The notes beneath the pieces are model-generated. The model saw only the letters and a program-made list of their open reading frames with translations. It was not told the origin of the DNA and ran no database searches. The position numbers and the translations under genes are program-made. DNA of 64,000 nt from an uncultured Lachnospiraceae bacterium. Its GTDB lineage: Bacteria; Bacillota; Clostridia; Lachnospirales; Lachnospiraceae. Every line of letters starts with the position of its first letter. The stretch's first letter is position 1. Location: positions 102,286-166,285 of the forward strand of contig CADANF010000002.1 in assembly GCA_902789175.1 (NCBI GenBank). The letters run 5' to 3'. Of the stretch, positions 16,900-38,087 are shown one piece after another.

Positions 16900-18621
16900 A
16901 TGCGAATAAGTGGAGCTAGAAAACAGATCCGAATCGGGGATCTGCTTGTAGAGGCGGGTGCTATAACTGAGGATCAGCTTCAACAGGCACTTGTAGTGCA
17001 AAAGGAAACTGGTGGAAGACTTGGTAATGTTATAATGGATTTGGGGTTCATAAGTCGTGAACTTCTTATCACGGTTCTTACTACCCAGATGGGTATCGAT
17101 TATGTCGAATTAAAAACGGTCAAAATAGATGATTCGGTTATTGATCTTATACCGGAACCTTTGGTACGTAAACATAAGGCTATGCCGATAGCTTTTGATG
17201 ATCATAACGCTAATATTCTTAAAGTGGCCATGGCAGATCCTATGGATCTTTCCGCAATAGATGATTTAAGTATTGCGTCGGGATATCAGGTTGATCCTCT
17301 TATTGCTTTTGAAGAGGATATCAATGACGCTATAGGAAAATACTACGGCAGTGCGTCTGCTATGGAAGCGGCTGAGAAGTTTAAGCTTGAGCAGCAGGCT
17401 AATCAGGTGTTGGATGAAGAAGAGGCTGCAGCAAATGCTGATATCGACAATTCTCCTATTGTACAGCTTGTAAATCAGATAATTGAAGGCGGTGTAAGAC
17501 AGAGGGCTTCTGATATTCATATCGAGCCTATGGAAACTTATGTCCGTGTAAGATATAGAATAGACGGTGCTTTAAAACAGGTAATGAGCTATGATCAGTC
17601 TCTTTCATCAGCTATCAGTGCCCGTATTAAGATTGTAGGTGGCATGGATATAGCGGAAAAGAGAAAACCTCAGGATGGTCGTATCACCATTATGGTAGAC
17701 AGAAGAGAGTTCGATGTCCGTGTATCTATTCTTCCTACAGTATATGGTGAAAAGACGGTTATGAGACTTACTTCCAAGGATGGACTTACAAAACCTAAGT
17801 CTGGTCTTGGATTCTCGCCTGAAGAAATTAAAACGTTTGATGGTATACTTAGTAATCCTCATGGCATCATCCTTGTTACAGGACCTACAGGATCAGGTAA
17901 ATCTACAACACTATATACTTCACTTTCAGAACTTAATACAGAAGATGTTAATATCATAACAGTTGAAGACCCTGTAGAAGCAAATATTGATGGCATAAAT
18001 CAGGTACAGGTTAATGCAAAAGCAGGACTTACCTTTGCGGCTGCGCTTAGATCTATCCTTCGTCAGGATCCGGATATCATAATGATAGGAGAAATCCGTG
18101 ACGGCGAGACAGCGACTATTGCGGTACAGGCCGCTATCACCGGTCACCTTGTTGTATCAACACTTCATACTAACTCTGCTGCTTCAACAGTTACCCGTGT
18201 AATTGATATGGGTATTGAACCTTATATCATTGGAGATGCTCTTGTAGGTGTTATCGCGCAGCGACTTGTTAGACGTCTCTGCCAGGCTTGTAAACAGCCT
18301 CGACTTGCAACAGAAGCAGAAAAGAAGGCTCTTAGAGTGGAGGACCTTTCAGAAGATGTAGTAATCTATGAGCCGAAAGGGTGTCCGCTTTGTAATGATA
18401 CGGGTTATTCAGGACGTATCGGTGTGTATGAAATGATGGCAGTTTCCCCTTCTCTTCAGGTGGTTATAGCTAAAGGGGCTACAGCCGATGTGATTGAAAA
18501 ACAGGCACTTGCGGAAGGTATGTCAACACTCCGTATGTCTGCAGGAAGACATGTTCTTAATGGAATTACTTCTATTGAAGAAATGAAGAAGATCACCTAC
18601 ACAGCTGGTGATGACTATTAA
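16900..18621 (+). CDS. pilB: Type IV pilus assembly ATPase PilB/GspE with MshEN domain
   Basis: This hexameric AAA-like ATPase powers pilus extension. From ATG 16900 the protein is 573 residues. The N-terminus carries two 24-residue MshEN motifs, R11-Q34 (RIGDLLVEAGAI...) and R40-Q63 (RLGNVIMDLGFI...), separated by exactly 5 residues, the layout known to bind cyclic di-GMP. A linker leads to the N2 and C-terminal ATPase domains: Walker A GPTGSGKST (328-336), Walker B-like DIIMIGEIRD (392-401), and a zinc site with C461-x2-C464 and C495-x2-C498. The start has AGGAGAGGG just upstream; an in-frame ATG at 16810 lies in the regulatory region. It heads the pilus operon and pairs with pilT at 84 bp. 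Confidence 0.95.
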   Translation: MRISGARKQIRIGDLLVEAGAITEDQLQQALVVQKETGGRLGNVIMDLGFISRELLITVLTTQMGIDYVELKTVKIDDSVIDLIPEPLVRKHKAMPIAFDDHNANILKVAMADPMDLSAIDDLSIASGYQVDPLIAFEEDINDAIGKYYGSASAMEAAEKFKLEQQANQVLDEEEAAANADIDNSPIVQLVNQIIEGGVRQRASDIHIEPMETYVRVRYRIDGALKQVMSYDQSLSSAISARIKIVGGMDIAEKRKPQDGRITIMVDRREFDVRVSILPTVYGEKTVMRLTSKDGLTKPKSGLGFSPEEIKTFDGILSNPHGIILVTGPTGSGKSTTLYTSLSELNTEDVNIITVEDPVEANIDGINQVQVNAKAGLTFAAALRSILRQDPDIIMIGEIRDGETATIAVQAAITGHLVVSTLHTNSAASTVTRVIDMGIEPYIIGDALVGVIAQRLVRRLCQACKQPRLATEAEKKALRVEDLSEDVVIYEPKGCPLCNDTGYSGRIGVYEMMAVSPSLQVVIAKGATADVIEKQALAEGMSTLRMSAGRHVLNGITSIEEMKKITYTAGDDY

Positions 18622-18705
18622 AATGTATAATTTGAATTTAAGCTTTACGATCAGCTTTTAATTCTTTTATAAAGACAATAACAATAAATATCAGGAGGAT
18701 GATAT

Positions 18706-19761
18706 ATGATCGATATGGACGAACTGCTTAGTTTGGCAGTTGACCAGAACGCATCTGATATACATCTTGCAGTAGGTATCCCACCTAAGTTCCGTATTGC
18801 TGGTAAGCTTGTGGATGTAAATGTTCCACCTCTTACAGCTACAGATGCTGCAGAAAGTATCGGAATGACAATGAATGAGAGACAGAAGGCTATTCTTAAA
18901 GACAGAGGTGAATGTGACTTTGCATATTCTGTCGGAGAAAAAGGAAGATTCCGTGTAAATGTTTTCATGGATAAAGGTAATATGGCTGCTGCTTATAGAA
19001 AGATCGACACCATAATACCTAGACCAGAGACTTTAGGTCTTCCACCTGCAGTTGTGGAACTTTATAGAAAGAAGAGAGGACTTGTTCTTGTAACAGGACC
19101 TACCGGTTCCGGTAAATCAACAACCCTTGCTTCTATCATTAATAAATGTAATGAGAATCTTAGTTCTCACATTATTACGCTTGAAGATCCTATAGAATAT
19201 ATACATCATCATAAGAAGTCTATCGTTAACCAGAGAGAACTTGGTATGGATACTCTTTCTTTTGAAAATGCACTTCGTGCAGCGCTACGTGAAGATCCGG
19301 ATGTTATTCTCGTAGGTGAAATGAGAGATCCTGAAACGATAAGTATTGCTATTACAGCGGCTGAAACAGGACATCTTGTATTTTCAACACTTCATACAAT
19401 TGGTGCGGCAAGTACTGTGGACCGTATCATTGACGTATTCCCTCCTCACCAGCAGCAACAGGTAAGAATCCAGCTGGCTCAGGTTATAGAGGGTGTTATC
19501 TCACAGCAGCTTATACCAACTGTATCAGGTAAGGGCAGATGTGCTGCATTTGAAGTAATGCTGGCTACTCCAGCCATCAGAGCTCAGATAAGAGAAGCAA
19601 AGACTCATCAGATTGAATCAACTATACAGACATCTAAACAGATGGGAATGATCACAATGGACGATTCACTAGTGGATCTTTACAGAAACGGAATGATAAC
19701 TAAGGAAAGTGCATTGTCATATGCAGTTGACATGCAGTTGATGAAGAAAAATCTTTACTAA
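18706..19761 (+). CDS. pilT: Type IV pilus retraction ATPase PilT
   Basis: The 351-residue protein starts with the PilT-type PAS-like domain (LLSLAVDQNASDIHLAVG), then Walker A GPTGSGKST (131-139), the Asp box, Walker B DVILVGEMRD, and the AIRAQIREAKTHQI segment (290-303), the PilT hallmark that separates retraction from extension ATPases. It lacks the zinc site of PilB, as expected. A strong AGGAGG precedes the start. Its presence argues that this machine retracts and so is a true type IV pilus rather than only a type II secretion-like or competence pseudopilus. Confidence 0.95.
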   Translation: MIDMDELLSLAVDQNASDIHLAVGIPPKFRIAGKLVDVNVPPLTATDAAESIGMTMNERQKAILKDRGECDFAYSVGEKGRFRVNVFMDKGNMAAAYRKIDTIIPRPETLGLPPAVVELYRKKRGLVLVTGPTGSGKSTTLASIINKCNENLSSHIITLEDPIEYIHHHKKSIVNQRELGMDTLSFENALRAALREDPDVILVGEMRDPETISIAITAAETGHLVFSTLHTIGAASTVDRIIDVFPPHQQQQVRIQLAQVIEGVISQQLIPTVSGKGRCAAFEVMLATPAIRAQIREAKTHQIESTIQTSKQMGMITMDDSLVDLYRNGMITKESALSYAVDMQLMKKNLY

Positions 19762-19788
19762 AACTTAAACTTAACCAAATATTTTCCG

Positions 19789-19829
19789 TTTGTTAACAAA
19801 TTGTTCATATAAAATGTGGAATATTAACA
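19789..19829. promoter_or_regulatory. Palindrome and inverted TGTTAATAT ahead of pilC
   Basis: TTTGTTAACAAA (19789-19800) is a perfect 12-bp palindrome, and ATATTAACA (19821-19829) is the exact reverse complement of the 9-mer found twice directly before pilB. Both lie just upstream of the pilC promoter. They could be operator sites shared by the two pilus promoters. Confidence 0.4.
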
Positions 19830-19835
19830 AAAACG

Positions 19836-19907: not shown

Positions 19908-21116
19908 ATGGCAAAATATTCTTTTAATGTCGTTGACCGTACAGGTAAATCGATGAAGAAGATTGTTGATGCAAACACAGAAGATGCCGCCAAGTCAAAA
20001 CTTAGATCTGAAGGGTATTCAGTTGTTGGTGCCGGTAAGGAACAAAGTAGTGGCGGAGTATCGTTATTTAAAAAGAAAGTTAAGGAACAGGATCTGGCGG
20101 TTTTTTGTAAGCAGTTCGCAGCAGTCCTAAGAGCTGGTGTTACAGTAATATCTGCTCTTGAGATGATGGGTGATCAGATGGATAATAAAACCCTTCAGGA
20201 AGCCATAAGAGATGCACAGGTTCATGTTCAGAAGGGTGGAAGTCTTTCAGATGCATTGAAACTTCATCCGAATGTATTCCCAGCAATTCTCTATAACATG
20301 GTTGCTGCCGGTGAATCATCTGGTAAGCTGGAAATCTGTTTTGAAAGATGTGCTACACAGTTTGAAAAGAGTTCAAAGCTTAATGGTAAGATCAAGGGTG
20401 CTATGACCTATCCTATCGTAGTACTTGTAGTTATAGCTATTGTAGTTGTAATAATGCTTATAGCCGTTATTCCTACATTTGAATCAATGTTTGCAGAAAT
20501 GGGAACACAGCTTCCTCTTGCTACAAGAATGCTGGTTTCCTTCTCTAATATGCTGATTCACAGAGGTTGGCTGGTGGCACTTATTGTGATTGGCATTGTG
20601 GTTGCAATTAAGTCGTTTAACAAGACTCCTACAGGACAGGAATTTACAGGAAGTCTTGCACTTAAACTTCCGATTTTTGGAACACTTAATCTTAAATCTG
20701 CAGCAGCAACGTTCTCAAGAACTTTTGCAACGCTTCTTGCATCAGGCATTCCGCTTATAGATGCGGTTGAACAGACAGCAAAGGTTATTAAGAATAAGGT
20801 CATCCGTGATAAGATTATGGATTGTAAGACACAGGTTGCAAAGGGTGTTCCTCTTTCAAAACCTATTAAAGATCAGGACATCTTTCCACCGATGGTTAGC
20901 CAGATGATGCACATTGGTGAAGAAACAGGTAATATCGAAGACATGATGTCTAAGGTTGCAGACTTCTATGAAGAAGAAGTTGATAGAATGGCTGATAACC
21001 TGACAACACTGATGGAACCACTTATCATGGTTGTTATGGCTGGTATCGTAGGTGTGATTGTAATGGCTATTTATGGCCCAATCATGAGTATGTACTCAGC
21101 TGTAGACAGTCAGTAA
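19908..21116 (+). CDS. pilC: Type IV pilus platform protein PilC/GspF
   Basis: The 402-residue inner-membrane platform protein has an N-terminal ARM-like stretch (KYSFNVVDRTGKSMKKIVDA), two homologous cytosolic GspF domains (LAVFCKQFAAVLRAGVTVIS and AATFSRTFATLLASGIPLID) and membrane helices after each (around 163-190, 215-235 and at the C-terminus LIMVVMAGIVGVIVMAIYGP). It couples the ATPases to pilin polymerisation. A good GGAGG precedes the start. It is separated from pilT by 146 bp containing a promoter. Confidence 0.95.
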   Translation: MAKYSFNVVDRTGKSMKKIVDANTEDAAKSKLRSEGYSVVGAGKEQSSGGVSLFKKKVKEQDLAVFCKQFAAVLRAGVTVISALEMMGDQMDNKTLQEAIRDAQVHVQKGGSLSDALKLHPNVFPAILYNMVAAGESSGKLEICFERCATQFEKSSKLNGKIKGAMTYPIVVLVVIAIVVVIMLIAVIPTFESMFAEMGTQLPLATRMLVSFSNMLIHRGWLVALIVIGIVVAIKSFNKTPTGQEFTGSLALKLPIFGTLNLKSAAATFSRTFATLLASGIPLIDAVEQTAKVIKNKVIRDKIMDCKTQVAKGVPLSKPIKDQDIFPPMVSQMMHIGEETGNIEDMMSKVADFYEEEVDRMADNLTTLMEPLIMVVMAGIVGVIVMAIYGPIMSMYSAVDSQ

Positions 21117-21138
21117 AATTCGTATAAATTTTGGTAGT

Positions 21139-21262: not shown

Positions 21263-21751
21263 ATGAAGAAGACAAACAAAGGTTTCTCACTCGTAGAACT
21301 TATTATCGTTATTGCTATTATGGCAATCCTTGCTGCAGCACTTGCTCCAGCTCTTATCCGTTACATTGACAAGTCAAGAAGATCATCTGACCTTTCTAAC
21401 GCTGGCATCCTTCAGTCAGCTGCTCAGTCAGCTGCTGCTGATGAAACAGCTTATACAGAAATTTCTGGTGCTATCTCAAAGACAGCTAATACAACAATTC
21501 TTACAGCTAATGCTGATGGTAAGACAAATTGGGCAATTGCTACAGGACTTACAGGATTACAGAATAATGGCAATACATTCTTAGACGAGTTCACATCAAC
21601 AGCTGGTAAGGCTGCACCTGCTTTAAAGCTTAGAAAGGGTGCTCCTGCAACTCCAGTATGGAACGTTGCTATTACACCAGAAGGTGGTTTCGTAGTTATG
21701 ATCAATACTACAGAGCTTGTTCCATCAGCAAAGGATATTTGGGCTAAATAA
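21263..21751 (+). CDS. Major type IV pilin (prepilin)
   Basis: The 162-residue prepilin has the class III leader MKKTNKG followed by FSLVELIIVIAIMAILAA: cleavage after Gly7 leaves Phe as residue 1 and Glu at position 5 of the mature 155-residue protein. The single hydrophobic helix is followed by an Ala/Thr/Ser-rich globular domain without cysteines. The strong Shine-Dalgarno (AAAGGAGAG), its own gap upstream and the hairpin directly after the gene suggest it is made in excess of its neighbours, as expected of the main shaft subunit. The prepilin peptidase gene is not in the window. Confidence 0.93.
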   Translation: MKKTNKGFSLVELIIVIAIMAILAAALAPALIRYIDKSRRSSDLSNAGILQSAAQSAAADETAYTEISGAISKTANTTILTANADGKTNWAIATGLTGLQNNGNTFLDEFTSTAGKAAPALKLRKGAPATPVWNVAITPEGGFVVMINTTELVPSAKDIWAK

Positions 21752-21939: not shown

Positions 21940-23547
21940 ATGGCAAAAACTGGAAAAGTCTTATCAATAGACATCAATAATGAAAGTATTACTATAGTAG
22001 AGGTAACACCTTCAGAGAAGAAGCAGACCTATATCCATAAGGTCTTAATATTTGAAACACCGGAAGATTCTTTTGAAGATGGTGTAATAAGAGATATTGA
22101 TAGAATAGCTGCTGAGATCCGTACTCAGTTAGCAACAAATGGTATCTCTAATAAAAATGCAATCTTTGTTATGAACTCACAGAAGGTGATCAACAGAGAA
22201 GTAACTTTAACAAATGTAAATCCGAAAAAAATCAAGGAAGCGATCAATGCTAATGCATCTGAATACTTCCCGGTTAGTATAGAAGATTATATAGTTTCAA
22301 GTTCTGTTCTTGAAGAGACAACAAGTCCTGATGGACAGAAGCAGCTTCGTGTTATGGCTGTAGCTGCACCTGAAGCTATGGTTCATGGTTATTATGATCT
22401 TGGTAATGCTGCAGGACTTAAGGTTGTAGCTATAGATTACATCGGTAACAGTATGCTTCAGCTTATCAAGACTCAGACTAATGAACAGTCAACAGCCATG
22501 GTTATCCAGCTTGGAAGCGAATCAACAGTTCTTAACGTTGTACAGGGTAAGAATCTGTTGCTTCAGCGTACAGTACCATATGGTACAAACCCAGTTGTTA
22601 ATGTTGTTATGGAAGAAAAGGGAGTTGATGCAACAACTGCTATGACGCTCCTTCAGAACGACAGAATAATTACAGTAGATTTTGATGATAATGAAGCTAC
22701 AGGCGCTTTCAGATATCTTATCAATAATATTGGACGTGTAATGGATTACTATGCAAGTAATCATCCGGATGCGCCAATTGATGATGTATTCCTTACAGGT
22801 GATGGAGCGCTTATTAGAGGAATTGATGGACTCTTTAAGATTCAGCTTAATGTATCAACACGTATCATGGATACATTATTTAATGTAAAATTTGATCCTT
22901 CAATCGATCAGAAGATTTACAGCCCTGTATATTTAATTGCTCCGATTGGTGCTGCTCTTAGTCCAATGGGATTTGAGATAATGCAGGCTAAGTCTCAGAG
23001 CAAGGGGGAGATTGGATTCGCTCCATTTATCGCAATCCTTGCTGTTGGACTTATTGCATCAGGCGGCCTTGCATTCTATATTTCACATCAAAAGTCTGTA
23101 GAACAGGATAATAAGGCTGCTCTTGAAAGGCAGATAAAGGAAAAAGAATATATTGAAACAGTTATTCAGGAACATGATGCAGCACAGGCTAAAGCTTTAG
23201 ATATTGCTGCAATGTCACTTTCAACATATTCAACAAATGAGCAGTGTCTTGCATTTATTAATGAACTTGAAGAAAAGATTCCTACAAATGTCATTGTACA
23301 GTCTTTTGCTGCGAGTGATACAGGAATAACTATTCCATGTACAGCAACAAATTATGATGAAATAGCAGACTTCATTGTACAGCTTAAGACAATCAGCTGT
23401 ATTCAGGATGTTTATGTTGCAAGTGTAAATAAAGAGTTAAAAGATGATGGAACAGAAAGTTTTGTGTATACTCTTACATGTACATATACAAATCCTTTTG
23501 ATATAGCAACTGAGTCAAGTGATGATTCTGGAATTGTTACTGAATAA
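21940..23547 (+). CDS. Type IV pilus assembly PilM-PilN fusion
   Basis: The first about 340 residues are an actin-like ATPase fold as in PilM (GKVLSIDINNESITIVEV at the start; IQLGSESTVLNVVQGKN; VFLTGDGALIRGIDGLF). They are followed by one membrane helix (about 360-385, FIAILAVGLIASGGLAFY), a coiled coil (VEQDNKAALERQIKEKEYI) and a ferredoxin-like extracytoplasmic domain, the layout of PilN. In Gram-negative loci PilM and PilN are separate and the short N-terminal tail of PilN binds PilM; here they are one 535-residue chain. With the PilO-like gene 14 bp downstream it forms the alignment subcomplex. The domain split is inferred from the pattern. Confidence 0.85.
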   Translation: MAKTGKVLSIDINNESITIVEVTPSEKKQTYIHKVLIFETPEDSFEDGVIRDIDRIAAEIRTQLATNGISNKNAIFVMNSQKVINREVTLTNVNPKKIKEAINANASEYFPVSIEDYIVSSSVLEETTSPDGQKQLRVMAVAAPEAMVHGYYDLGNAAGLKVVAIDYIGNSMLQLIKTQTNEQSTAMVIQLGSESTVLNVVQGKNLLLQRTVPYGTNPVVNVVMEEKGVDATTAMTLLQNDRIITVDFDDNEATGAFRYLINNIGRVMDYYASNHPDAPIDDVFLTGDGALIRGIDGLFKIQLNVSTRIMDTLFNVKFDPSIDQKIYSPVYLIAPIGAALSPMGFEIMQAKSQSKGEIGFAPFIAILAVGLIASGGLAFYISHQKSVEQDNKAALERQIKEKEYIETVIQEHDAAQAKALDIAAMSLSTYSTNEQCLAFINELEEKIPTNVIVQSFAASDTGITIPCTATNYDEIADFIVQLKTISCIQDVYVASVNKELKDDGTESFVYTLTCTYTNPFDIATESSDDSGIVTE

Positions 23548-23561: not shown

Positions 23562-24695
23562 ATGAATAATGATACAAAGAATGCAATAAAATTATTACTT
23601 GTACTGCTTGGAATAGGAAGCGTTGCTGCTACATTTTTCCTGTTTTTTAAACCTACAAAAGAAGAAGTTGATTCTTTAAAAGCAACTAATAGTACACTTC
23701 AGGCAAGACTTGATGATCTTAAGGCAAAAGAAGCAAAGAAAGCTCAACTTGAAGAAGAAACAAAACAGTATGAACAGTCTTTTCAGGATGAGTTAGCTAA
23801 TTATCCTGCTGATCTTAATCAGGCAACAACTGTTATGTTTATGAAAGGAACAGAACAGCAGACAGGTGTTTTGAATAAATCATTTACAATGCCAGAAGCA
23901 ACAACATATTATACACTTGGACAGGGGGTAGCTAATCCTGATACAACTATTACTACAGCGGATAGTGAAACTTTAAATAGTAATGATTATATTGTAACAA
24001 CTTGTCCTTACAATGTAGCCTATGAGGGAACTTATGTTGATCTTAAGAAGTATCTTAATTATATTTCGGAATATAAGTATAGAATGAATATTTCCCAGAT
24101 TAATATCACATTTGATCAGGATGAAATGAAGTGTTCAGGGGCTGTAACACTTAATGGTTATGCAATTTCAGGTCCGGACAGAACACCTGAAACAGTTGAT
24201 TTAAATGTTAAAGAAGGTAAGGATAACCTCTTCACTCAGTCAGCTGGTTCAACAAATGCAGCTGCATCAAAATATGATACAGATAAGGGAGCGTCAATTG
24301 TAAGCAATCATAATCTTATGATCTATCTTAACAATGCTCAGAATGATTCTTCATCAGGTATCATTGTTGCATCTGATGAAAATGATGAATCAACATATGT
24401 TACTTCAACAAATAATTCAGTTGAGGATCTTACAATTACAATTAATGAAGTATCTGGTAAGAAAACAATCACTTATCAGATTGGAGATAAGTCATATTCA
24501 GCACCTATTTCAACAAGTGATGTAACTATTTACGTTAAGTCATCATCTCGTGTTGATACTTCAGATAAGAATGGTGTTAATGTTTCTGTCAGAAATGCAA
24601 CAGGTGTTGGTGTATATATCAAGGTTGCTGATGATGATGCAACAAGCCCAAGATTTAAGCTTGCATCAAAGATAGGTACAGTTAAGGTTTATTAA
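23562..24695 (+). CDS. PilO-like type IV pilus alignment protein
   Basis: The 377-residue protein has a short cytosolic start, one membrane helix (about residues 10-30), a coiled coil (EEVDSLKATNSTLQARLDDLK ... AQLEEETKQYEQ in two stretches), then an extracytoplasmic domain rich in Thr/Ser. The segment YVDLKKYLNYISEYKYRMNI is the typical PilO element linking helix and strands. It is longer than normal PilO (about 200), with a C-terminal extension of roughly 150 residues (from about residue 205) that has no recognised domain. Strong GGAGGAGGG precedes the start. Confidence 0.78.
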   Translation: MNNDTKNAIKLLLVLLGIGSVAATFFLFFKPTKEEVDSLKATNSTLQARLDDLKAKEAKKAQLEEETKQYEQSFQDELANYPADLNQATTVMFMKGTEQQTGVLNKSFTMPEATTYYTLGQGVANPDTTITTADSETLNSNDYIVTTCPYNVAYEGTYVDLKKYLNYISEYKYRMNISQINITFDQDEMKCSGAVTLNGYAISGPDRTPETVDLNVKEGKDNLFTQSAGSTNAAASKYDTDKGASIVSNHNLMIYLNNAQNDSSSGIIVASDENDESTYVTSTNNSVEDLTITINEVSGKKTITYQIGDKSYSAPISTSDVTIYVKSSSRVDTSDKNGVNVSVRNATGVGVYIKVADDDATSPRFKLASKIGTVKVY

Positions 24696-24713: not shown

Positions 24714-26279
24714 ATGAGAAGGACGAATAACAAAGGCTTCAGCTTAGTTGAACTTGTGGTAGCTATAGCTGTACTGTCTATCTTAATAACACCTATCATC
24801 AATAAATTAGTGGCTTCACTAAAACTTTCTGCTAGAGCAAAAGAGAGTCAGTATGCTTATCAGAATGCCGCATATGTTTACGACTATTTTGATAAAACAG
24901 ATAAATCTACTCTTGATTCGGGCGGAACGTCGGATTTTAGTATTGATTCTACAGCTGTAAGTAATTACAGCTGTAGGCTTTATACAGTGAATGATACTGG
25001 GTCAGGAACAAGTCATAATTATAGTATATTAGATGCAGGAATTGATGTTGATTACTCAGTTACAACATATAATCTTCCGGCGGTAAGTATTAAACCTAAT
25101 AATAATAAGTATACAAGAAGCGTCGATTTGGATGACCTTGATAGTAAAGCCAGAGTAAAAGGATATAATGTTATTTATAATATTCTTTCTGATTCACAGA
25201 ATAAATTAGGAAAGTATGTTCAAGATAATGGTTGGACCTTGCTTGATGATGGGAAAGCTGTAAAATATACAGATGGACATATATCAGCAGTTTTATGTTC
25301 AAAGATGTCTAAAGCTTCAACGAATTATAGCATGCAGGGACTTAATTCTAATACAGTAGCCCTTATTGATGGTACTGAGGCAAACTATGATAAACAGTTT
25401 GCTGCTGATTTAAGAACTGCGATGATTAAAATTGATGCTGATGCAGGATTTACTGATACTGCAACAGTTAATAGCCATATTTCACAGTATTTAGCTACTT
25501 ATGGTGAAAATATCAACAGATATATGGCAATATCAGTAAGAACAATTCTTAGTGCAAATGGTAAACAGGTTGATCATTATCATGTTACTGTCAGTGTTTA
25601 TTTTAACTGCACATCAAATTTCAGAGGAAAAGAATTACCTAAATTTTCTTATGTTGCATATGATAAGGATTTTTATACAACAGAGTCACCAGATGTATAT
25701 CTTATATATGAACCATTTGTAATAGGTAAGGGTGATTCATCTGTAGAAAACTATTCCCCAAATGATTATATAATAACATATGGTGATCAGTATGCATCAA
25801 CTGGAAATCTTCCAAATGGTGGAAAAACTAATCCATCGAAGGTTTATCTCATTAGACCACAAAATACTTGGTTTAACAGTGTATCTAACAGAGCTTCTTC
25901 AACAATAATGACTAGTAATATTTATTATTATAAGAAATCTGGAACATACAATAACAATAAGGTTCGTATCTATCTTAATGAGGTAGTGGATTCAAAAACT
26001 CCGGGAACAGAACAGCTTAAGGTATATACAAATGTTTCTGTTACAGATCAGGGGGATTCGATAATAGTTGGACAGTTTGCTTATGACAACTTTTCATCAG
26101 CATTTGTTACATCTAATATTTTATCATCAGGTCAGAGCCTTAATAAGTACATTGGAACAAACAATATGGCCATAAAGCAGGATGTTAATGACACTGCAAG
26201 ACTTTATGGAATTACAGTAAATATGGAAAATGAGAATGGCTCTGTTATTCATTACACAGGTTCTAAGGAGGCTGATTAA
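24714..26279 (+). CDS. Minor prepilin, PilV/GspI-like position, large C-terminal domain
   Basis: The leader MRRTNNKG and FSLVELVVAIAVLSILITP make a canonical prepilin N-terminus with Glu at +5. The remaining about 480 residues are far longer than a usual minor pilin (150-200) and are rich in Ser/Thr/Asn/Tyr. The gene lies between pilO-like and the E5-less pilin-like gene, matching the PilV/GspI place in minor-pilin operons; that assignment is by position. GGAGGAG precedes the start, and the end of the gene carries the Shine-Dalgarno of the next. Confidence 0.8.
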   Translation: MRRTNNKGFSLVELVVAIAVLSILITPIINKLVASLKLSARAKESQYAYQNAAYVYDYFDKTDKSTLDSGGTSDFSIDSTAVSNYSCRLYTVNDTGSGTSHNYSILDAGIDVDYSVTTYNLPAVSIKPNNNKYTRSVDLDDLDSKARVKGYNVIYNILSDSQNKLGKYVQDNGWTLLDDGKAVKYTDGHISAVLCSKMSKASTNYSMQGLNSNTVALIDGTEANYDKQFAADLRTAMIKIDADAGFTDTATVNSHISQYLATYGENINRYMAISVRTILSANGKQVDHYHVTVSVYFNCTSNFRGKELPKFSYVAYDKDFYTTESPDVYLIYEPFVIGKGDSSVENYSPNDYIITYGDQYASTGNLPNGGKTNPSKVYLIRPQNTWFNSVSNRASSTIMTSNIYYYKKSGTYNNNKVRIYLNEVVDSKTPGTEQLKVYTNVSVTDQGDSIIVGQFAYDNFSSAFVTSNILSSGQSLNKYIGTNNMAIKQDVNDTARLYGITVNMENENGSVIHYTGSKEAD

Positions 26280-29200: not shown

Positions 29201-29399
29201 TGAGCAGGCAACTAAGGTACTCGGTTTATTCAAGTCATATCAGGGTTATCTTACATCGACAGCAACAGCAGCTTCTACTCAGGCTAGTGCCGATAATAAG
29301 TTATCAATCACACAGATTGACTATACAAATTATATGGGTTACGAGAACTGGATGAAGAATGTTGAATACGATAACTGGTATAATCAGATTGATTATTAA
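26283..29399 (+). CDS. Very large PilX/GspK-like minor pilin candidate
   Basis: A basic start (MKILKKLKKKIRNTG) is followed by SGLVLVVVALGFVGILVGAL, a pilin-like helix that has Leu rather than Glu at +5 if cleavage occurs after the Gly. This is the feature of GspK and related PilX-type subunits. Helical sequence follows (to about 70), then about 950 residues with beta-helix-like stretches resembling bactofilin repeats (around 388-475: VIVPGTVAVMNSGNLTLSG, NINANLYVRDDTTID) and again near 905-940 (FNGIVITKGDVFFDANVKTF). GspK is normally about 300 residues, so 1038 is extreme. It sits in the minor-pilin cluster, 3 bp after the previous gene. Not sure whether it is processed by the prepilin peptidase. 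Confidence 0.7.
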   Translation: MKILKKLKKKIRNTGSGLVLVVVALGFVGILVGALLTAAKLLVALQQYEYNARDNFNYLQQAMNKIYQSIGEESNVCMQKAYEDTLKYMVVYNPTTNTYDTRDDAKVNEYFKDVFMAKLVSSSALDKTTLARNMQEVISGNEMAKPRDSAGTQTTLISRADAEKNYSITLNVNSLSVVAYDLTGHQMTLQDAKNNSNKVGKFVIRGVELTRTVDYARSISGQGKYRQTINTDIVISRPSFDVRFDVSSIDSNSLFDYCIIADSGIEIDGTAPGGVTIAGNVYAASDFYNKDYNNYDGNHGNLATEDLKIYQQEDVYHMNKVSNYIYDESSRLTSLFNKNQLLKNDETYRTTGTTTGTVVDDYLYNGENQYSKYSGIYVNGTNVLMVSGKVIVPGTVAVMNSGNLTLSGINGAGAGNSEMWVDNLYLGGSSNVTSGTASKGGAVANINANLYVRDDTTIDAEGAELKINGSYFGYSNSTTSDKRTFVPTTAKDSDGNFIYQEVVTNGNETIIQNRGHYNSSAMIVNGQDSTLDISDLNTLYIAGRSYIELSRQKNGTKYDENNNIIETYQYNSKTGDYKTGESISVRSTQLAYIPLSNPSADDRVEGNTYLVDMPDILKTANLFTKYFGYNNSANKIPVIMVTENVTTAAGTTAPRTFCYFDFSYAAKMKMYDPDKFDSDVKADDLSASFIKDYMYYFDYFEKYKNSDPNIPSDVDTDIFNTTSGVLVDLTSTLKDVTNYSSFKAGEISLASADDNTRNYYASGVLTKALDTDDTTGNITFGVETASDTVVTTLSENYDATGSGIIDSSYSTGTETGRLSMSDQYLRHYNYLKWNLSDIVGSDSEAAFINSLLNDANYGEAALTPINKFFNFEKIHNPNATTAYVNEVFGTDHRIIISDSDVTIKDNDSDGIFNGIVITKGDVFFDANVKTFNGLIVSGGKVYIDSNTLESINSSSLSLEAINACMVAIGSDKDEQATKVLGLFKSYQGYLTSTATAASTQASADNKLSITQIDYTNYMGYENWMKNVEYDNWYNQIDY

Positions 29400-29420: not shown

Positions 29421-30044
29421 ATGGGGAAAACTTTAAAAAACAATAAAGCATATTCATTCGTCGAGATGATAGTAGTAATAGGTATTCTACTGGTAGTTTC
29501 TGGAATGTCTCTTCTGTCTTTTACTATTATTAAATCAGCTAGAGGACAGGATGCAGCGCTGGTTTTTGATTCGACTATTTCAGAGCTTATTACCCGGTCA
29601 AAGAACATGAATGCGGCAAAAGAAAAGAACATGAAATGGGTTACAGGTGACCAGAGTTATGATTTTGAAACAATAGGTTATACCTTAAAAATCTATTGGG
29701 ATGATGAAGATGAAGTGTATGCTCTCCAATTCGGTGACTATTATGCCGACGATAAGAGTGAGGGAACAAGTGCAACTGGTGGAAAATTAGTTTCTAGAAG
29801 AAGAAGGTCATATTATGGCGATTATAAGTCTCAAAGTCTTACAGGAGATTGTGTTATCTATTACACAATTGAAGGAACTGATACAAGAGTTATGATAGAT
29901 GAAGATCATCCTATTGAGATCAGATATACCAAGAGAGGTTTATGTGTTGATGGCTTTGGAAAATATGAATTCTATAGAAGTGATGGAACAACGCATATTG
30001 CCGATGTTATAGTAAGACGTAACGGAAGCCATGAAGTACATTAA
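29421..30044 (+). CDS. Minor prepilin, FimT/GspH-like
   Basis: The N-terminus MGKTLKNNKA-YSFVEMIVVIGILLVV is a prepilin signal with Ala at -1 and Tyr at +1 in place of the usual Gly-Phe; Glu is at +5. The mature domain is about 197 residues and short compared with its neighbours, as for GspH/FimT/FimU. It is followed 14 bp later by the GspJ/PilW-like gene, consistent with a minor pilin set of four. The assignment to the H-type is by size and position. Confidence 0.8.
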   Translation: MGKTLKNNKAYSFVEMIVVIGILLVVSGMSLLSFTIIKSARGQDAALVFDSTISELITRSKNMNAAKEKNMKWVTGDQSYDFETIGYTLKIYWDDEDEVYALQFGDYYADDKSEGTSATGGKLVSRRRRSYYGDYKSQSLTGDCVIYYTIEGTDTRVMIDEDHPIEIRYTKRGLCVDGFGKYEFYRSDGTTHIADVIVRRNGSHEVH

Positions 30045-30058: not shown

Positions 30059-31315
30059 GTGAGTTCAATGAAAAAACGTAATAATAAAGGCGTAACTTTA
30101 GTAGAACTTCTGGTTTCTATGGCTGTACTTGCTGTCCTTATGGTAGCCGTTATTGGTTTTATGACAGCATTCATAAATATATATAGAAATAGAAAAAAAT
30201 CCAGGGCTATCCAGCAGACAGCTCAAAGTATTTATGATAATATGTCTGATGCTATAATGCAGGCGGATGTCATTGAAATAAAAGGTTATACGTATAGTGG
30301 CTCTGGTGAAAAGACACAGGTTGATTTTACTCTTAAAAATGGTTCAATTGCAAATGGATCGATTGAATATGCTTCATACGCTAATACTAATACTACTAAT
30401 CTTAGTGAGTTTACGTGTGATATTACATATAATGGATCTAAATATGTACCATATTATCAGGGTTGGAGAACTTATTATAGTCTTGAGTCCTTTTCAAAGA
30501 AAACTACTAAAATAGATAGAAGTAGTATAGTTTGGAAAGTTGTTCCTGAATTTAAGAAGGTACTCACATTATCAGGTAGTGATATTGCTAATTATATTGA
30601 TTATGTTAATATTCCGGCAAGGGAGTATTATGGATCAAGTATATATTATGATAAACAAGGAAATACGTATTATGAGACATCTACAGATAATATGTATGTT
30701 CAGGTTCCTGCATCAAAGATGACTTTTGTTTCATTTGATTGGAAAGAGACAGGTGCGGTTACGGTATCAGGTAAGAGAAGTTTTCAGTATCTTAAAACTG
30801 GTTCTGCCCCGGTTAATCTATATATTACAGAAATGAAGGTGCATTATAGTGTCCCACTTGACTGGAAATATGCGATTAAGACACTAGAAGATTCTGATGG
30901 AAATCATTATGACGGAGATGAAAGATGGTCAAATATAAGTGGATTTAATTTTCAAATTAGTTCTAACTCGTCAGATGCATATCATTATCTAACATTATCA
31001 AATAATTCCAGTATCATTATTGATCATGATGATGTAACAACCACATATTCATTTGATAAAAATGTAATGAAGGTGTCATCTAAATATAAGTATATGTATA
31101 AACTTGATACATATTCTATAGATGATAAGGAATATACTAACCTTATAAAATATTTAAATATTGGTGGTAAAGATGTTCCTGGTATTATTGCAAGAGTAGA
31201 TGCTGAGAATCAGAGTATTGAACTTGAGATTCATGTAGGAAATGATAAAGAATCATTTGTTTCATCAGGTATTATTAATCTTAAGAACAATAACGTACTT
31301 ATGTATGAAGAATAA
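30059..31315 (+). CDS. Minor prepilin, PilW/GspJ-like (GTG start)
   Basis: The leader is basic (MKKRNNKG) and followed by VTLVELLVSMAVLAVLMVA, with Val at +1 and Glu at +5. The chain then has a long amphipathic helix (RNRKKSRAIQQTAQSIYDNM) typical of PilW/GspJ minor pilins and a 340-residue beta-rich domain. The start is GTG 30059, with AAGGAGG 9 bp upstream; ATG 30068 would be 18 bp away. The product is 418 residues, about twice a usual GspJ. It precedes the giant exported protein by 19 bp. Confidence 0.82.
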   Translation: MSSMKKRNNKGVTLVELLVSMAVLAVLMVAVIGFMTAFINIYRNRKKSRAIQQTAQSIYDNMSDAIMQADVIEIKGYTYSGSGEKTQVDFTLKNGSIANGSIEYASYANTNTTNLSEFTCDITYNGSKYVPYYQGWRTYYSLESFSKKTTKIDRSSIVWKVVPEFKKVLTLSGSDIANYIDYVNIPAREYYGSSIYYDKQGNTYYETSTDNMYVQVPASKMTFVSFDWKETGAVTVSGKRSFQYLKTGSAPVNLYITEMKVHYSVPLDWKYAIKTLEDSDGNHYDGDERWSNISGFNFQISSNSSDAYHYLTLSNNSSIIIDHDDVTTTYSFDKNVMKVSSKYKYMYKLDTYSIDDKEYTNLIKYLNIGGKDVPGIIARVDAENQSIELEIHVGNDKESFVSSGIINLKNNNVLMYEE

Positions 31316-31334: not shown

Positions 31335-34300
31335 ATGAAAAAAGGTAATTTGAAAATTAAATTAATTGCTTTAGCCGCATTCATAGTTGCAGCTATATCC
31401 TGCGCTTTGTTCCCATTCCTTCTTGCGGATGAGGGAGAAGGTGATTCTTCAACTGGGGTACAGGCACAAGAGGAAAGTAATAATACAAATATCGATAATA
31501 TCATCAATGATAGTAATAATGCTGATATTACTGATTATAAGTATAGGATTGTTGAAATTGGTTCTTCAAAGACACCTTCTGGATTAAAGAAGATAGCTGA
31601 AGAATCAAAAGATTCAGCAACTAATGCTACTAAATCAATATTTAAAGATTATATTATTGATGCTAATAAGAAGGTTACACCAACTATGGCTGCTGGTAAG
31701 GTAGACTATGTTTACTATTATGTTGGCGCTGCAGCTGATCAGACAGATTCAGAGAGAACTTCTGTCTGGTATAACCTTGATGGTAAAGAAGTAAATGAAG
31801 ATACTGTAGCAAATGCAGTAAAGAATGCTGATATGATCTATGTAAGTAATGATCCTTCAGATATGTATACAAAAGAGAAAGATATTACAGAACATGTTAA
31901 GCTTGCTCTTGCAACAGCAGCTACAGGAGATTATGTTCCTTTCATAATCGATAATTTTGCTGAAACAACTGATGATAAAGAAGATGAGCAACAGACTTCT
32001 AGTATTGTAACAGTTGGTCAGCTTGTTAATAATAATTTTGCTAAAAAAGGCAAAAAGTACGCAACTTACGAATATAAAGATTCATATACTTCTATTGAAG
32101 AACTTATGGATCTTTCAACTTCAACAGCTCTTTTTACATCTGTAAATGGTGCTAATCAGATAAATAACAATGTCTGGTCAGTTACAGATGATACAAAAGA
32201 TAAAGATGAAAAGAAATATGTTGCCAAAGTTCTTACTATTTATAATTCAGATAAGTCTTTTACTGGATATATAAAGGAAGCAGCAGGAATCACTTCTGCA
32301 TCAGGAAATGAAAATGTAAAGATTGACGGGGCAGATGTATCTGTTTATAAGTTCAATAAAGATTCATCTTTTGCTAAGAATGGATATTATACCCTTGAAG
32401 CTATTCCGGATTATTTAGTGTTTGATGAAGTAAATGTTAATAGTAGTGCAGCAACACTTAAAGACATGGATCTTTCAAAATATGATTATATCGTTTTTGA
32501 AAGCGGATGTGCCGGGGAGCAGATTAGCGAAGAAATCTATAAAAAGTTTGCTGCTGCAATGGTTGGACGTGTTCATATTCTTTACAGCGAATCACTTAAG
32601 AATACTTCATCAGGAAGTTCTTCATCTTCAGGAAGTGAAACTCCTGTTGATAATAAGGCTTCTAACTATGCATATGTTCTTGATAAGGTTGCTACATCAA
32701 CAGGTGATTCAAGATTTGGTAATGTTCTTGTAACTTCTAAGTCTGGAATGGATGCATACTCTGTTGCAGAAGGTCCTGCTTCAGTTTATGATATAGCAAG
32801 AATCATCATTGCCGGTTCTTACAGAGGTATTGCTGGTACAAACAGTGGTGGTGATACATCAAATGTTTATACAGTACTTGAAATTCAGCCTGATTATCCG
32901 GTTGATTTAGATCTTGCTGGAAAGCTTTATGGTATTAGAAAATTAAATGATAATAAGTCTACATTTGCTGGTAAGACTTGGACATTTTTAGAAGCAAGTG
33001 CAAGAAATCATGGTAACCCTCAGTATGATATTAATGGAAATACTAATCCACATCTTCCAACTGCTTTCTACTATATTAGAACAGATGGCGTATCAAATCT
33101 TAATGCTGATGAGATTTCATATGATGGAACAAAATCTCTTAGTGAGATGATGTCAGATGGTTCTATCGATGATTATCTTGGTACAGCAGACGCTGCAACT
33201 ATGGAAACAGTTGTAGATTATTATAATTGGAGCCTTTCAAAGGCAAAGATTGCTCATGCTACAGGAAGATCTTATGATGAAGTAAATGTTATTCACATGT
33301 CATCAGCTGAATTTAATACTAGTCGTGAAACGCTTCTTGACAGCTATGATGCAATTTACATTGGTGGTGATAATTCAGCTATAAAAGATGAGAGTTTATG
33401 GTTCTCAAAGAAGAATGGACTTGATTATTATACTATGTATTACCATACAGGTGATGCATATAAATATCCATCTGGTGTAAAGGGTTATGTTCAGGATGGA
33501 AATCAGATAGGACTTCTTACCGGTAATGATATTACTCAGGATAAGGAAGAGGAGCTTAGAGAATATATTAATAACGGAATGCCTGTTATTTTAGATAAAG
33601 CTCTTTCTGATGCTTATGATTCATGTGGAAGTGATCATTTACTTGATCCTAATTCTAATATGAAGCATTTCCTTGACTCTGCTAATGCCAAAAAGACAAC
33701 AGATGGTGGAAATGTTCTTTGGTATTTTGATAATAAGAGTACATTTAAGACATATAATGATGGTATCCTTTATGGAACAACCTATAGTGGCTATGCTACT
33801 GTATTTGCAGGTAACTCAAATACAACAGATGGTAAAACTTTAGATTATAAAGGTAATGAAGTAGTAGTTAACTCAACTGTAAATGAAAAGCAGTTAAGAG
33901 ATCTTCTTACTTCAACTAAAACAACAGTTAGACCTCGTCTGGCTGTAACATCACTTACTGCTAATAGTAAGTATGTATCTGCATATAAAGAAGGCGATGA
34001 AAGTACATATCTTACACTTGGTAAGACTGCAGGTGAAAGATCTGTTAAGTTTAATTACTCGATTGGTGGAAACAGTAACAATTTAGAGACTAAGCTTTTC
34101 ATTGATCAGAATGATGATGGTCTCTTTACTGAGACTAAACCTTCAGAAAAGGTTGATTCTGGAGCAGGCAATAAGGGAACACTTACATTTAATGTTCCAA
34201 CATCTTCATATGGTGGAGTTTACTGGAAGATTGAGACTACAGATATTAATACTGGAGCTAAGTCTTCAAAGACTGGTGTATTCCGCGTTAAGAGAAACTC

Positions 34301-37300
34301 TAACCAGAAGAAGGCGGTTATAGATCTTCTTCAGATTATGCCGGCTGTAAATAGAGGTTCAAATTCTCCTGCAACACTTTATTTTTGTACAGAGTGTCAG
34401 ATGGCAAGAGGTATTCTTACAGTTAACAGATGTGGCCCGGTTGGTAAGTATTCACATGATAATCTTGCTGCACTTTCAAGTTCACAGTGGAATAATGAAG
34501 TGAGTGGTATTGCATCAGTTCCTGATTCTACTAATTTTATAGTTAGTGTCATTAAGGCAGATAATCCTGATTATGAATATGATGGAACATCACTTGGTGT
34601 TCATGAGCATAAATTTGGTATTGTAAAATATTATGATGATCTTGAATTTGATGGATTCACAGGTGCAGATGATATCAACTCTAACTGGTTTGATTCCATT
34701 GCAGATGATTATGATGTTCAGGAAACAATTCTTACTACAAGACAGTATGAAGATATGGTTAATACCATTGAAGCTCAGTACGCAGATAAATCTGCTAAAG
34801 AAGCAGAACAGATGATTTCTGATTATGCTACTGAAGCAGCTAAATATCAGAAGTTATATGAAGCTACAAGAAATCTTATTAATGGTGAATATAATGATGA
34901 ATCAAAACGTGATTCAAATTATAAAGAGCTTGTTACATATCTTACTGGTTTAACAGATTCATCTTCAGGTACTGCTAAGGCATTCTTTACTGAAGCTGAT
35001 ATTCTTGCTTATGGTAAGGCATCTGAAAATCTTGATGAATATTTACTTAATAATAGAGAAAATATTGCATCGGCATTTACAGATAAGACAACTCCAGAGG
35101 ATGCAAGAAGAGAAGTTGATTTTGAAACAAACAGTGAGATTGAAAGAGATAAGAGAAGTTATTATGATCTTTATTCTTTGGTTAACAGTGCAAGTTCTGG
35201 AACAGCAGCAGACACTATCTATAAAGCTTATGGACCACTTTATTCAAAGTATAGAGATATAAAGATTTTAGAGCAGTATTTTAAGAATGCAGCTCTTGGT
35301 TATAGATTAATATCTTCTGTTGATACAAATGGTAAGAAGGTAGTTTGTGATCTTGATCAGTCATTCAGCTGTATTGTTCTCGGTGCTGCTGAAAATTTTG
35401 GTAATGATGATATTGCCAGTGGTGCACCAATAAATGCTCTTGTTAAGTATGTTAAGGAAGATAATGATGTTCTTCTTTTCCACGATACACTTACAGCAAG
35501 CAGTGGTAATACAACAAATATGACTAATAATCTTGCATCACTCTTTGGACAGAATGCAAGACATTACGTTAAAGATACTGCCGGTGTTGAGAAGACACTT
35601 GCCGATCAGAAACTTACAATAAAGTATAAGCCTGAATATCAGGAATATACAGCAACGGTTGATCTTCCAGCATCCTTTGGTAAGTCAACAGTTACTATTA
35701 AAGAACAGGGTACTGCTGAATATAAGCTTAAATCTGGACTTGATAGTGGTCATACAATTGATATCACATATGGTAATGGTAAGAATGCTGAGATAACTGG
35801 ACTATCAACATCTGTTGAAAATACAGTATTTACTATCACAAAGGCAGAAAAGGTTTTTGATACAACACAAAAAACTATGGACGTATATTATTATCCATAT
35901 ACAGCGTCAACAAAGTATCAATACGGACAGCATTATTATGACGGAGGAACTTATAGTTTCTTTAAGAGTGGTGATACATATTGGGCAAATACGAGTAACG
36001 GATATAAAGAAGTAGTTAAGAGTAATGATGGTAGATACTATTTTTCAAATAGTCGTAACTATTTTGTAGATATGGATACTATGAAAGTATCAGATAGTAC
36101 TTCCGAAGTTACTTACACTGCTCCTAGTTACAATCTGAAGTTCTATACTTCTGATTCATATCAAAATAATGCTATACCTGATTGGGCAAAAAATAATTAT
36201 ATATTGAACAGTGATATATTTGCAGATACAAATTTAATTGAAGCTAAGCTTGTTAGACCTTGGGGTCAGTTCCTGTATTCTTCAAATTATCGTACTGCTA
36301 GTGTTGAACAGACTCTTGATAAGAATTCAAGTGATAAGAAGGAAGTAAGAATCCAAATAACCTATGATTATGTATCGAATAATAGGTGGAAAAATGAGAA
36401 ATTTAATTATGATGTTCAGTTATATGCTGTTGTAAATAATGATTATAATAATCCAATAAAGCTTAATTATGTAGAAGAGTATTATGATAAGTATGCAGCT
36501 TTTGCAAATTACAGAGCAACATACAGTGATCCTGTTGTCACCACAGAAGGAACACTTCCTGATGGATTTGGTAAGCAGACATTTACAATCAGAGTTGTAG
36601 ATGGAGATAATAATCCAATAGCTGATGAAAAAGTAGATTATGTGCTTAATAAATCTGAAATGTATACCTACCAGAATAGCTCATATTTAGCTGGTGGTGA
36701 TGTGACTGATGCAGATGGAAATGTAGAATTTACTATGGAAAATTCAACATACAACAAGTCAGTAACCGGAATTACTGCTTCTATTGTTAAGGATGGAACA
36801 ATATCTAAAGAAATTGATAACCAGCAGGTAACATTTAAGTTTGTTGATCCAAATGGTAATATCTTAAAAGATACATCATTTACTGTTTCATCTAATAACG
36901 CGGCAAATGCTGACAAGAGCCTTAAGACTGGAAGCAATGGTGAGATAGTTGTAAATGACAATAAGAATTATACTGAAAAGACCGTATCTGCTAGATATAC
37001 TCTTGAAAATGATTATGCTGGTAAGTCAGAAACCTATTATTATAATAAGAATGGTGGAAATTATACTGTAAATCCAACTTCTCTTAACATTAAGAATATT
37101 CCTGAGTATCAGAGTCTCGGTGCAGCAATGGACTTTAACTCTAATATGGGTGGATCAATGTTTAAGTATTCTCATTATGATTATGAATATGCAGAAACAA
37201 ACAATCAGGTTTTACAGCAGGAACATGATGTAAGAGAACAACTTAGAACAGATGGTAAGGGTGGTTCAACTGATAAGGCTACACAGACTAATGTAGGTTT

Positions 37301-38087
37301 TGTAACACTTTATCCATTTAATATAGGTTCAAGACTTCAGATTTCACCAACTTCAATGCAGTGTTATACAGCTGATATTGAAGACAGAGACTTGATAGTT
37401 TATTACGCTCTGGCTGGTGGTTCTGCAGGTTCACCTTCATCTGTATTTGCAGCTGATCCAAACAATGGTGCAGAGAATTACTTCCTTTACAGATATGGAA
37501 ATATTACTTATACAGGTGCAGGTCATGGTTGTGTAACTGGTTATGGTAGAAATAATAATGATGAAAGAAGACTTTTCATTAATATCATTCTTAGCTCTGC
37601 TCATAGCGTGGTTGAAGAATCAGATCTTAACCTTTATGATGAAACATCAACAATTAATAATCTTACAAACAGAAAGGTTATTAAGGATCCAACAGGTGTT
37701 AATGATTATGTAATTAAGGTTACTACAAATAACGATACTCCAGTATTCTCATTCCTTCCAACTCTTGATAGTAGTGAAGGCGTAGAACTTACAAGTATTC
37801 AGATCTTCTATGATCTTGATAATAATGGTGAGTATGGTGCTGGTGATGTAGAGATCTTTAATGAAGAAAGACAGGCTGGATTAGTTGATTCAGGTGTACT
37901 GACAAAGATTAATGCAGATACAATTAAGGATTTCAGATCTGAATATGAAGGCAGACTTCAGCTTCAGGCTAACTACTTCATAGATGGTTATGCATATATC
38001 GTAGTAATTATGAAAGATTCAACAGGAATGGAATATAAGAAGACAATTCGAATTGAACTTCCTGAAGAATTACAGTATCTTAACTAA
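31335..38087 (+). CDS. Giant exported protein, PilY1-position pilus tip candidate
   Basis: The 2250-residue protein begins with a signal peptide (hydrophobic core LIALAAFIVAAISCALFPFL; likely cut near the LLA-DEG boundary). The body is acidic and Ser/Thr/Asn/Tyr-rich. Several stretches have an alternating fold with loop phrases such as DAIYIGGDN and EEELREYINNGMPVILD (about 725-750), a Cys group (FCTECQ ... NRCGP, about 1017-1034), two Ig/Cna-B-like modules (about 1737-1900, with VTDADGNVEFTM and KTGSNGEIVVND), and a C-terminal block with NITYTGAGHG (about 2054-2064). From memory the last resembles DUF5057 proteins. No LPxTG motif or C-terminal anchor is present. Position at the end of the minor-pilin run mirrors pilY1. 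Function as tip adhesin is inference. Confidence 0.7.
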   Translation: MKKGNLKIKLIALAAFIVAAISCALFPFLLADEGEGDSSTGVQAQEESNNTNIDNIINDSNNADITDYKYRIVEIGSSKTPSGLKKIAEESKDSATNATKSIFKDYIIDANKKVTPTMAAGKVDYVYYYVGAAADQTDSERTSVWYNLDGKEVNEDTVANAVKNADMIYVSNDPSDMYTKEKDITEHVKLALATAATGDYVPFIIDNFAETTDDKEDEQQTSSIVTVGQLVNNNFAKKGKKYATYEYKDSYTSIEELMDLSTSTALFTSVNGANQINNNVWSVTDDTKDKDEKKYVAKVLTIYNSDKSFTGYIKEAAGITSASGNENVKIDGADVSVYKFNKDSSFAKNGYYTLEAIPDYLVFDEVNVNSSAATLKDMDLSKYDYIVFESGCAGEQISEEIYKKFAAAMVGRVHILYSESLKNTSSGSSSSSGSETPVDNKASNYAYVLDKVATSTGDSRFGNVLVTSKSGMDAYSVAEGPASVYDIARIIIAGSYRGIAGTNSGGDTSNVYTVLEIQPDYPVDLDLAGKLYGIRKLNDNKSTFAGKTWTFLEASARNHGNPQYDINGNTNPHLPTAFYYIRTDGVSNLNADEISYDGTKSLSEMMSDGSIDDYLGTADAATMETVVDYYNWSLSKAKIAHATGRSYDEVNVIHMSSAEFNTSRETLLDSYDAIYIGGDNSAIKDESLWFSKKNGLDYYTMYYHTGDAYKYPSGVKGYVQDGNQIGLLTGNDITQDKEEELREYINNGMPVILDKALSDAYDSCGSDHLLDPNSNMKHFLDSANAKKTTDGGNVLWYFDNKSTFKTYNDGILYGTTYSGYATVFAGNSNTTDGKTLDYKGNEVVVNSTVNEKQLRDLLTSTKTTVRPRLAVTSLTANSKYVSAYKEGDESTYLTLGKTAGERSVKFNYSIGGNSNNLETKLFIDQNDDGLFTETKPSEKVDSGAGNKGTLTFNVPTSSYGGVYWKIETTDINTGAKSSKTGVFRVKRNSNQKKAVIDLLQIMPAVNRGSNSPATLYFCTECQMARGILTVNRCGPVGKYSHDNLAALSSSQWNNEVSGIASVPDSTNFIVSVIKADNPDYEYDGTSLGVHEHKFGIVKYYDDLEFDGFTGADDINSNWFDSIADDYDVQETILTTRQYEDMVNTIEAQYADKSAKEAEQMISDYATEAAKYQKLYEATRNLINGEYNDESKRDSNYKELVTYLTGLTDSSSGTAKAFFTEADILAYGKASENLDEYLLNNRENIASAFTDKTTPEDARREVDFETNSEIERDKRSYYDLYSLVNSASSGTAADTIYKAYGPLYSKYRDIKILEQYFKNAALGYRLISSVDTNGKKVVCDLDQSFSCIVLGAAENFGNDDIASGAPINALVKYVKEDNDVLLFHDTLTASSGNTTNMTNNLASLFGQNARHYVKDTAGVEKTLADQKLTIKYKPEYQEYTATVDLPASFGKSTVTIKEQGTAEYKLKSGLDSGHTIDITYGNGKNAEITGLSTSVENTVFTITKAEKVFDTTQKTMDVYYYPYTASTKYQYGQHYYDGGTYSFFKSGDTYWANTSNGYKEVVKSNDGRYYFSNSRNYFVDMDTMKVSDSTSEVTYTAPSYNLKFYTSDSYQNNAIPDWAKNNYILNSDIFADTNLIEAKLVRPWGQFLYSSNYRTASVEQTLDKNSSDKKEVRIQITYDYVSNNRWKNEKFNYDVQLYAVVNNDYNNPIKLNYVEEYYDKYAAFANYRATYSDPVVTTEGTLPDGFGKQTFTIRVVDGDNNPIADEKVDYVLNKSEMYTYQNSSYLAGGDVTDADGNVEFTMENSTYNKSVTGITASIVKDGTISKEIDNQQVTFKFVDPNGNILKDTSFTVSSNNAANADKSLKTGSNGEIVVNDNKNYTEKTVSARYTLENDYAGKSETYYYNKNGGNYTVNPTSLNIKNIPEYQSLGAAMDFNSNMGGSMFKYSHYDYEYAETNNQVLQQEHDVREQLRTDGKGGSTDKATQTNVGFVTLYPFNIGSRLQISPTSMQCYTADIEDRDLIVYYALAGGSAGSPSSVFAADPNNGAENYFLYRYGNITYTGAGHGCVTGYGRNNNDERRLFINIILSSAHSVVEESDLNLYDETSTINNLTNRKVIKDPTGVNDYVIKVTTNNDTPVFSFLPTLDSSEGVELTSIQIFYDLDNNGEYGAGDVEIFNEERQAGLVDSGVLTKINADTIKDFRSEYEGRLQLQANYFIDGYAYIVVIMKDSTGMEYKKTIRIELPEELQYLN

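Follow-up and report, generated by a model that had tools for sequence, protein, structure and literature searches.

A type IVa pilus locus in a Lachnospiraceae bacterium pairs an HIJK-like minor-pilin set with a giant DUF5057 protein, a candidate tip component

The DNA analysed here (the window) is a stretch of 64,000 nucleotides from an uncultured Lachnospiraceae bacterium (assembly GCA_902789175.1, contig CADANF010000002.1). Eleven genes at 16900..38087, all on the plus strand, encode a type IVa pilus machine, four minor-pilin-like proteins and an exported protein of 2250 residues (Table 1). A sequence-only reading of the same DNA had named these genes and placed them on one strand, and every one of them was confirmed as an open frame. 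PilB, PilT, PilC, PilM, PilN and the major pilin all pass their Pfam cut-offs, and the major pilin has a class III signal, as expected of a type IVa machine. The window PilT carries, as AIRAQIRE, the AIRxxIRE motif which we take to be the mark of a retraction ATPase. Between pilMN and the gene for the giant protein the intergenic gaps are only 3 to 21 bases, so that these genes are likely to form a single operon; probable ribosome-binding sites can be read by eye from pilMN onward. A promoter scan of 16600-26300 returned 39 sites, where shuffled sequence gave 37.0 on average, and a scan of the window for riboswitches and other known RNAs gave nothing at gathering score.

Table 1. Genes and protein features of the pilus locus (window coordinates; E, E-value).
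Feature	Position	Strand	Basis
pilB, extension ATPase with MshE-type N-terminus binding cyclic diguanylate (c-di-GMP)	16900..18621	+	PF00437 447 bits, PF05157 74 bits; NF053729 67.8 vs cut-off 38
pilT, retraction ATPase	18706..19761	+	NCBIfam PilT/PilU TIGR01420 478.9 bits vs cut-off 319.1; motif AIRAQIRE
pilC, platform protein	19908..21116	+	PF00482 212 bits
pilA, major pilin	21263..21751	+	PF07963 36 bits, above cut-off
pilM-pilN fusion	21940..23547	+	PF11104 97.7 bits, PF05137 31.5 bits, both above cut-off
PilO-like protein	23562..24695	+	Place; PF04350 E 0.013, below cut-off; position kept in relatives
I-type minor pilin, 521 residues (PilV of the sequence-only reading)	24714..26279	+	PF07963 31.7 bits; Glu5 present; order conserved
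K-type minor pilin, 1038 residues, without Glu5	26283..29399	+	GSGLVLVVV around cleavage Gly; no Pfam/NCBIfam match
Beta-solenoid-like body of K-type protein, residues 250-989	27030..29249	+	
H-type minor pilin, 207 residues, Ala at -1	29421..30044	+	PF07963 20.1 bits vs cut-off 21.2; Glu5 present
J-type minor pilin, 418 residues (PilW of the sequence-only reading)	30059..31315	+	PF07963 34 bits; Glu5 present
2250-residue exported non-pilin protein, DUF5057 family	31335..38087	+	Sec-type N-terminus (by eye); neither a sortase signal nor a membrane stretch at the C-terminus
DUF5057 (PF16480), model positions 1-265	33525..34352	+	75.6 bits vs cut-off 27.9; same place by genome search
Remainder of DUF5057 after insertion of ~300 residues, residues 1308-1387	35256..35495	+	Own profile built from relatives
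Immunoglobulin-like (Ig-like) domain (Big_1)	36534..36836	+	36.9 bits on whole protein vs cut-off 34.9; 30.5 on piece
C-terminal conserved block, GNITYTGAGH here	37137..37619	+	Most widely shared stretch among family giants matching the 2250-residue protein

The locus had been described as complete, which does not hold for the prepilin peptidase. No gene for this enzyme lies within it, and the sole A24-family (PF01478) match in the whole genome sits on another contig (C18), inside another filament locus. That second locus (L098) has PilB/PilC/PilM-like genes and a small pilin, and a 133-residue neighbour resembles, by eye, a separate N-terminal part of PilD. Both filament systems probably share the single A24 peptidase. 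Between pilA and pilMN, eight of the nine relatives whose interval was read have a gene of about 250 residues with PilD-like first letters (by eye), which the window does not have. The cell had also been called secretin-less, and indeed the secretin family has zero matches genome-wide. Together with the near relatives, which are Lachnospiraceae, this leads us to regard the host as a monoderm, secretin being the only outer-membrane marker covered by the search.

The four pilin-like genes stand in the fixed order I-K-H-J. Across the window and its relatives, Glu at position +5 is found in 43/43 pilA, 37/37 H, 41/41 J and 36/38 I proteins and in 0/38 K proteins (labels were given by best BLAST match, and part of those for H, I, J and pilA stem from other filament systems; three duplicate loci were dropped, and the K count leaves out a 39th protein that is truncated at its start). 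Three of the four window proteins show the N-methylation motif at E < 0.001, with the H-type protein at 29421 just below the curated cut-off; in the K-type protein the motif is visible by eye and through its relatives, without a family match. The H-type prepilin is unique among 37 in having Ala rather than Gly before the cleavage site (29421-29450). When H, I and J were compared with NCBIfam the matches were N-terminal or weak, and all fell below cut-off except those of I and J to the generic pilin-signal model; their identities were assigned from gene order, Glu5 and the N-terminal motif. The family searches proposed in the sequence-only reading gave N-terminal or weak matches for GspH, GspI and GspJ and nothing for GspK or PilY1. 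Its equation of the four genes with the known Gram-negative set is supported by our comparisons: the order is fixed and the K-type protein alone regularly lacks Glu5, as in an HIJK set and not as in a streptococcal PilABC. In the published HIJK pattern, too, the tip is capped by a K subunit without Glu5 (PMC9934059). Streptococcus sanguinis is another monoderm whose type IVa pilus has minor pilins that are large and modular, with PilABC in place of HIJK (PMC10191384). Its tip complex contains three minor pilins, of which the Glu5-less one is the I-like PilA (PMC9934059), and is not known to include a giant non-pilin protein. The window encodes four, of which the Glu5-less one is K-type.

Type II secretion uses HIJK sets as well, and there they contact secreted effectors (PMC10191384); the genome also contains a second PilB/GspE-like locus. 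One might therefore read the machine as a secretion pseudopilus, with minor pilins working as in type II secretion and with the giant as the substrate that it releases. We consider this highly improbable, since a PilT above the family cut-off is encoded within the locus and since, with no secretin to pass, a Sec-exported protein would presumably need no pseudopilus in order to exit.

The K-type protein would owe its size to the solenoid-like body. Its structure prediction is of low confidence and a Foldseek search with that model gave no significant match; profiles of the K-type family compared with the PDB by sequence gave nothing credible. The model resembles tapirin, a cellulose adhesin, a likeness which suggests putative binding to plant fibre. 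The PDB comparisons gave no sequence match to the tapirins of Caldicellulosiruptor, and the likeness comes from the low-confidence model.

The giant protein belongs to the DUF5057 family, a membership that a Pfam scan of the full-length protein did not reveal and that was found both with a 600-residue piece and by genome search. Between the two parts of the domain, at window positions 34386-34610, a CxxC pair is followed some 70 residues on by H-x-H, each kept in four of five aligned proteins, and these residues possibly form a metal site. The sequence-only reading had put this gene at the place of PilY1. As a position this is correct; kinship finds no support, for three pieces covering the protein gave no match to the PilC/PilY1 family (IPR008707) in Pfam searches extended to E 10. 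A structure model made for part of the giant from one relative reached a mean predicted local distance difference test (pLDDT) score of 38.6, too poor to be read for a beta-propeller fold. Pieces of 19 relatives that comprise the second half of DUF5057 and the GNxTYxGxGH block gave ThuA (PF06283) matches in four cases (2/9, then 2/10 further). Most of the model is covered in three of these and part of it in the fourth (L157), the best E-value being 1.1e-5 and the best score 26.2 bits against a cut-off of 33.4. All of the relatives' matches are below the curated cut-off and the window's own protein has none, so the link that these weak matches draw between the second half of DUF5057 and ThuA, or class I amidotransferase-like domains more broadly, is a tentative one. 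Neither the DUF5057 piece nor its second half found anything credible in the PDB by sequence.

The C-terminal ends of the giants are conserved. None of 29 C-termini (one of them, L106, cut) has an LPxTG motif and only one has a hydrophobic C-terminal stretch. Outside the family f33, which belongs to another class, an LFxLD-type motif ends 28 of 38 giants, compared with a frequency of 0.0028 per position inside them; the set includes fragments as well as a few proteins that lack DUF5057, and of the ten in which the motif is missing, three (L106, L170, L171) are truncated at an edge. By eye, all 17 f33 giants end in Tyr after D/E/N-x. An EF-hand-like loop, D-x-[DNS]-x-[DNS]-G, occurs in 22 of the 29 giants, at 31 sites in all (shuffled sequences gave 4.05 on average and at most 9), and in none of the three f33 giants of that set.

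Among 120 genomes of the same family the 2250-residue protein was matched in 18, the K-type protein in 25 (the window's own included) and PilT-like ATPases in 119, a count that takes in other ATPases; the stretches around these matches were examined for part of the matching genomes. In relatives the order pilB-pilT-pilC-pilA-pilMN-pilO-I-K-H-J-giant recurs, and the large proteins are co-conserved with pilB, pilT and pilC, contrary to what the sequence-only reading had named as its refutation. DUF5057 lies above cut-off in 28/120 genomes of the family, 5/291 of the class, 7/398 of the phylum and 17/59 of f33, which makes 49 genomes after removal of overlaps. The DUF5057 gene shares its examined stretch with type IV pilus genes in 47 of these, and in the remaining two (G009, G100) it runs to the contig end. 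This linkage is seen in four families of one phylum (f1, f10, f33 and f195). The arrangement in f33 is a different one: the giant gene and pilB are transcribed divergently, and on the other side of the giant gene its immediate neighbour is a K-type gene lacking Glu5 (by eye) in 14 of 17 cases; this gene lies farther off in two and was not seen in one. One genome (G039) has two similar pilus loci (L116, L166), each with a giant gene of more than 2300 residues.

Some cases run against this linkage. Pilus genes are missing beside a tail-only DUF5057 match (G054, 29.3 bits with neighbours) and beside each of three matches below cut-off (G040, G112, G553). A batch of 20 PilT loci comes from genomes without a DUF5057 match; of the six with minor-pilin sets four lack a giant gene, and the remaining pair encode exported proteins of 802 and 1024 residues. 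In G017 and G064, which have no DUF5057 match, a different exported frame follows J. G025 has a fragmentary giant frame that follows pilB-pilT-pilC without minor pilins. The absence of the giant from some otherwise similar pilus loci, together with its Sec-type N-terminus (by eye) and Ig-like domain, would suit a surface protein, secreted or bound to the wall, that stands apart from the pilus and is co-transcribed with it since both serve attachment. We think this rather unlikely given the linkage in 47 of 49 genomes, including a second family with another gene arrangement, and given C-termini that are conserved, free of LPxTG and in 28 of 29 cases without a hydrophobic stretch.

The sequence-only reading was right that the subunits are large here, but this is not special to the present genome. 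K-type proteins over 500 residues range from 566 (cut) to 1079 residues in relatives and giants from 652 (a fragment) to 2392, or from 1238 to 2392 when cut proteins are set aside; large size is therefore common. In three loci (L155, L160, L168) it is the J-type minor pilin that has grown, to 839-1049 residues, so that different genera enlarge different minor pilins. Such sizes, the existence of pili without a giant gene and the ligand binding of the modular minor pilins of S. sanguinis (PMC9934059, PMC8179133) would fit a scheme in which the enlarged I, K and J proteins are themselves the adhesins and the giant has an assembly role, for example guiding the pilus through the cell wall. This we judge quite improbable: an assembly part would be expected to be always present and more uniform in length, whereas uncut giants span the 1238 to 2392 residues given above and are absent from some loci.

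The explanation that we favour, and hold to be probable though by no means secure, is a retractable type IVa pilus with an HIJK tip complex on which the DUF5057 giant is held to do the work of PilY1. The analysis shows the gene content, order, linkage, domain membership and Glu5 pattern; that the proteins sit at the tip and form a complex, that the pilus retracts in this organism and what it binds, we infer as follows. PilB would extend the pilus, perhaps switched by c-di-GMP, and PilT would retract it. I, J, H and K would form an HIJK-type priming and tip complex, with the Glu5-less K-type protein, enlarged by its solenoid body, as the outermost member. The giant would be exported by Sec, dock non-covalently on this complex and so travel out with the extending pilus and back with the retracting one. 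The model is PilY1 of Myxococcus xanthus, which with the minor pilins primes the pilus, sits at the tip and stops retraction (PMC7541494). By analogy, a priming complex with a docked DUF5057 protein can be envisaged, and an adhesive tip is plausible; its likely task would be to grip insoluble plant polysaccharide or mucus.

The resemblance to PilC/PilY1 of diderm type IVa systems lies in a large exported non-pilin protein encoded beside four minor pilins, in a conserved carrier region combined with variable modules and in the EF-hand-like loop; PilY1 itself has an EF-hand-like calcium site, a conserved C-terminus and diverse N-termini (PMC4471445). The difference is that the window giant is a DUF5057 protein, with weak ThuA similarity in its relatives, and would thus do PilY1's work through an unrelated carrier domain. 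Clostridioides difficile offers another clostridial pilus with a proposed tip complex, of PilU, PilV and PilK, and the available part of that account does not mention a giant non-pilin partner (PMC9556784). PilC/PilY1 has been described as absent in monoderms (PMC9934059); the window locus and those of its relatives combine an HIJK-like set with a dedicated giant non-pilin protein. Tip effectors have been described on two kinds of carrier, the pilin and the propeller of PilY1 (PMC8179133). It is conceivable, at somewhat less than an even chance, that DUF5057 is a third carrier module and the monoderms' own non-pilin tip effector on HIJK, with the K-type protein of Lachnospiraceae as a tapirin-like fibre adhesin and the pili as retractile grips on plant cell walls. 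In the literature library that we searched no paper names DUF5057 and none treats ThuA together with type IV pili, and none of the papers listed there deals, judging by its title, with Lachnospiraceae type IV pilus loci. The linkage to pili offers a first functional context for DUF5057, and with it a way to test how Lachnospiraceae of the gut and rumen keep hold of insoluble substrate.

Some further features were seen around the loci examined. At 38860-43923 of the window, on the minus strand, lies a gene for a 1687-residue membrane protein, presumably YfhO-like; one relative (L103) also has this gene, together with efp, close to its pilus locus. In seven loci (L191, L194, L195, L196, L197, L201, L204) pilT occurs without pilB or pilC in the examined stretch, in some cases near flagellar- or topoisomerase-like genes (by eye). 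Finally, a minus-strand frame of 3632 residues (L193:4932) starts with a pilin signature and stands beside small pilin-like genes.

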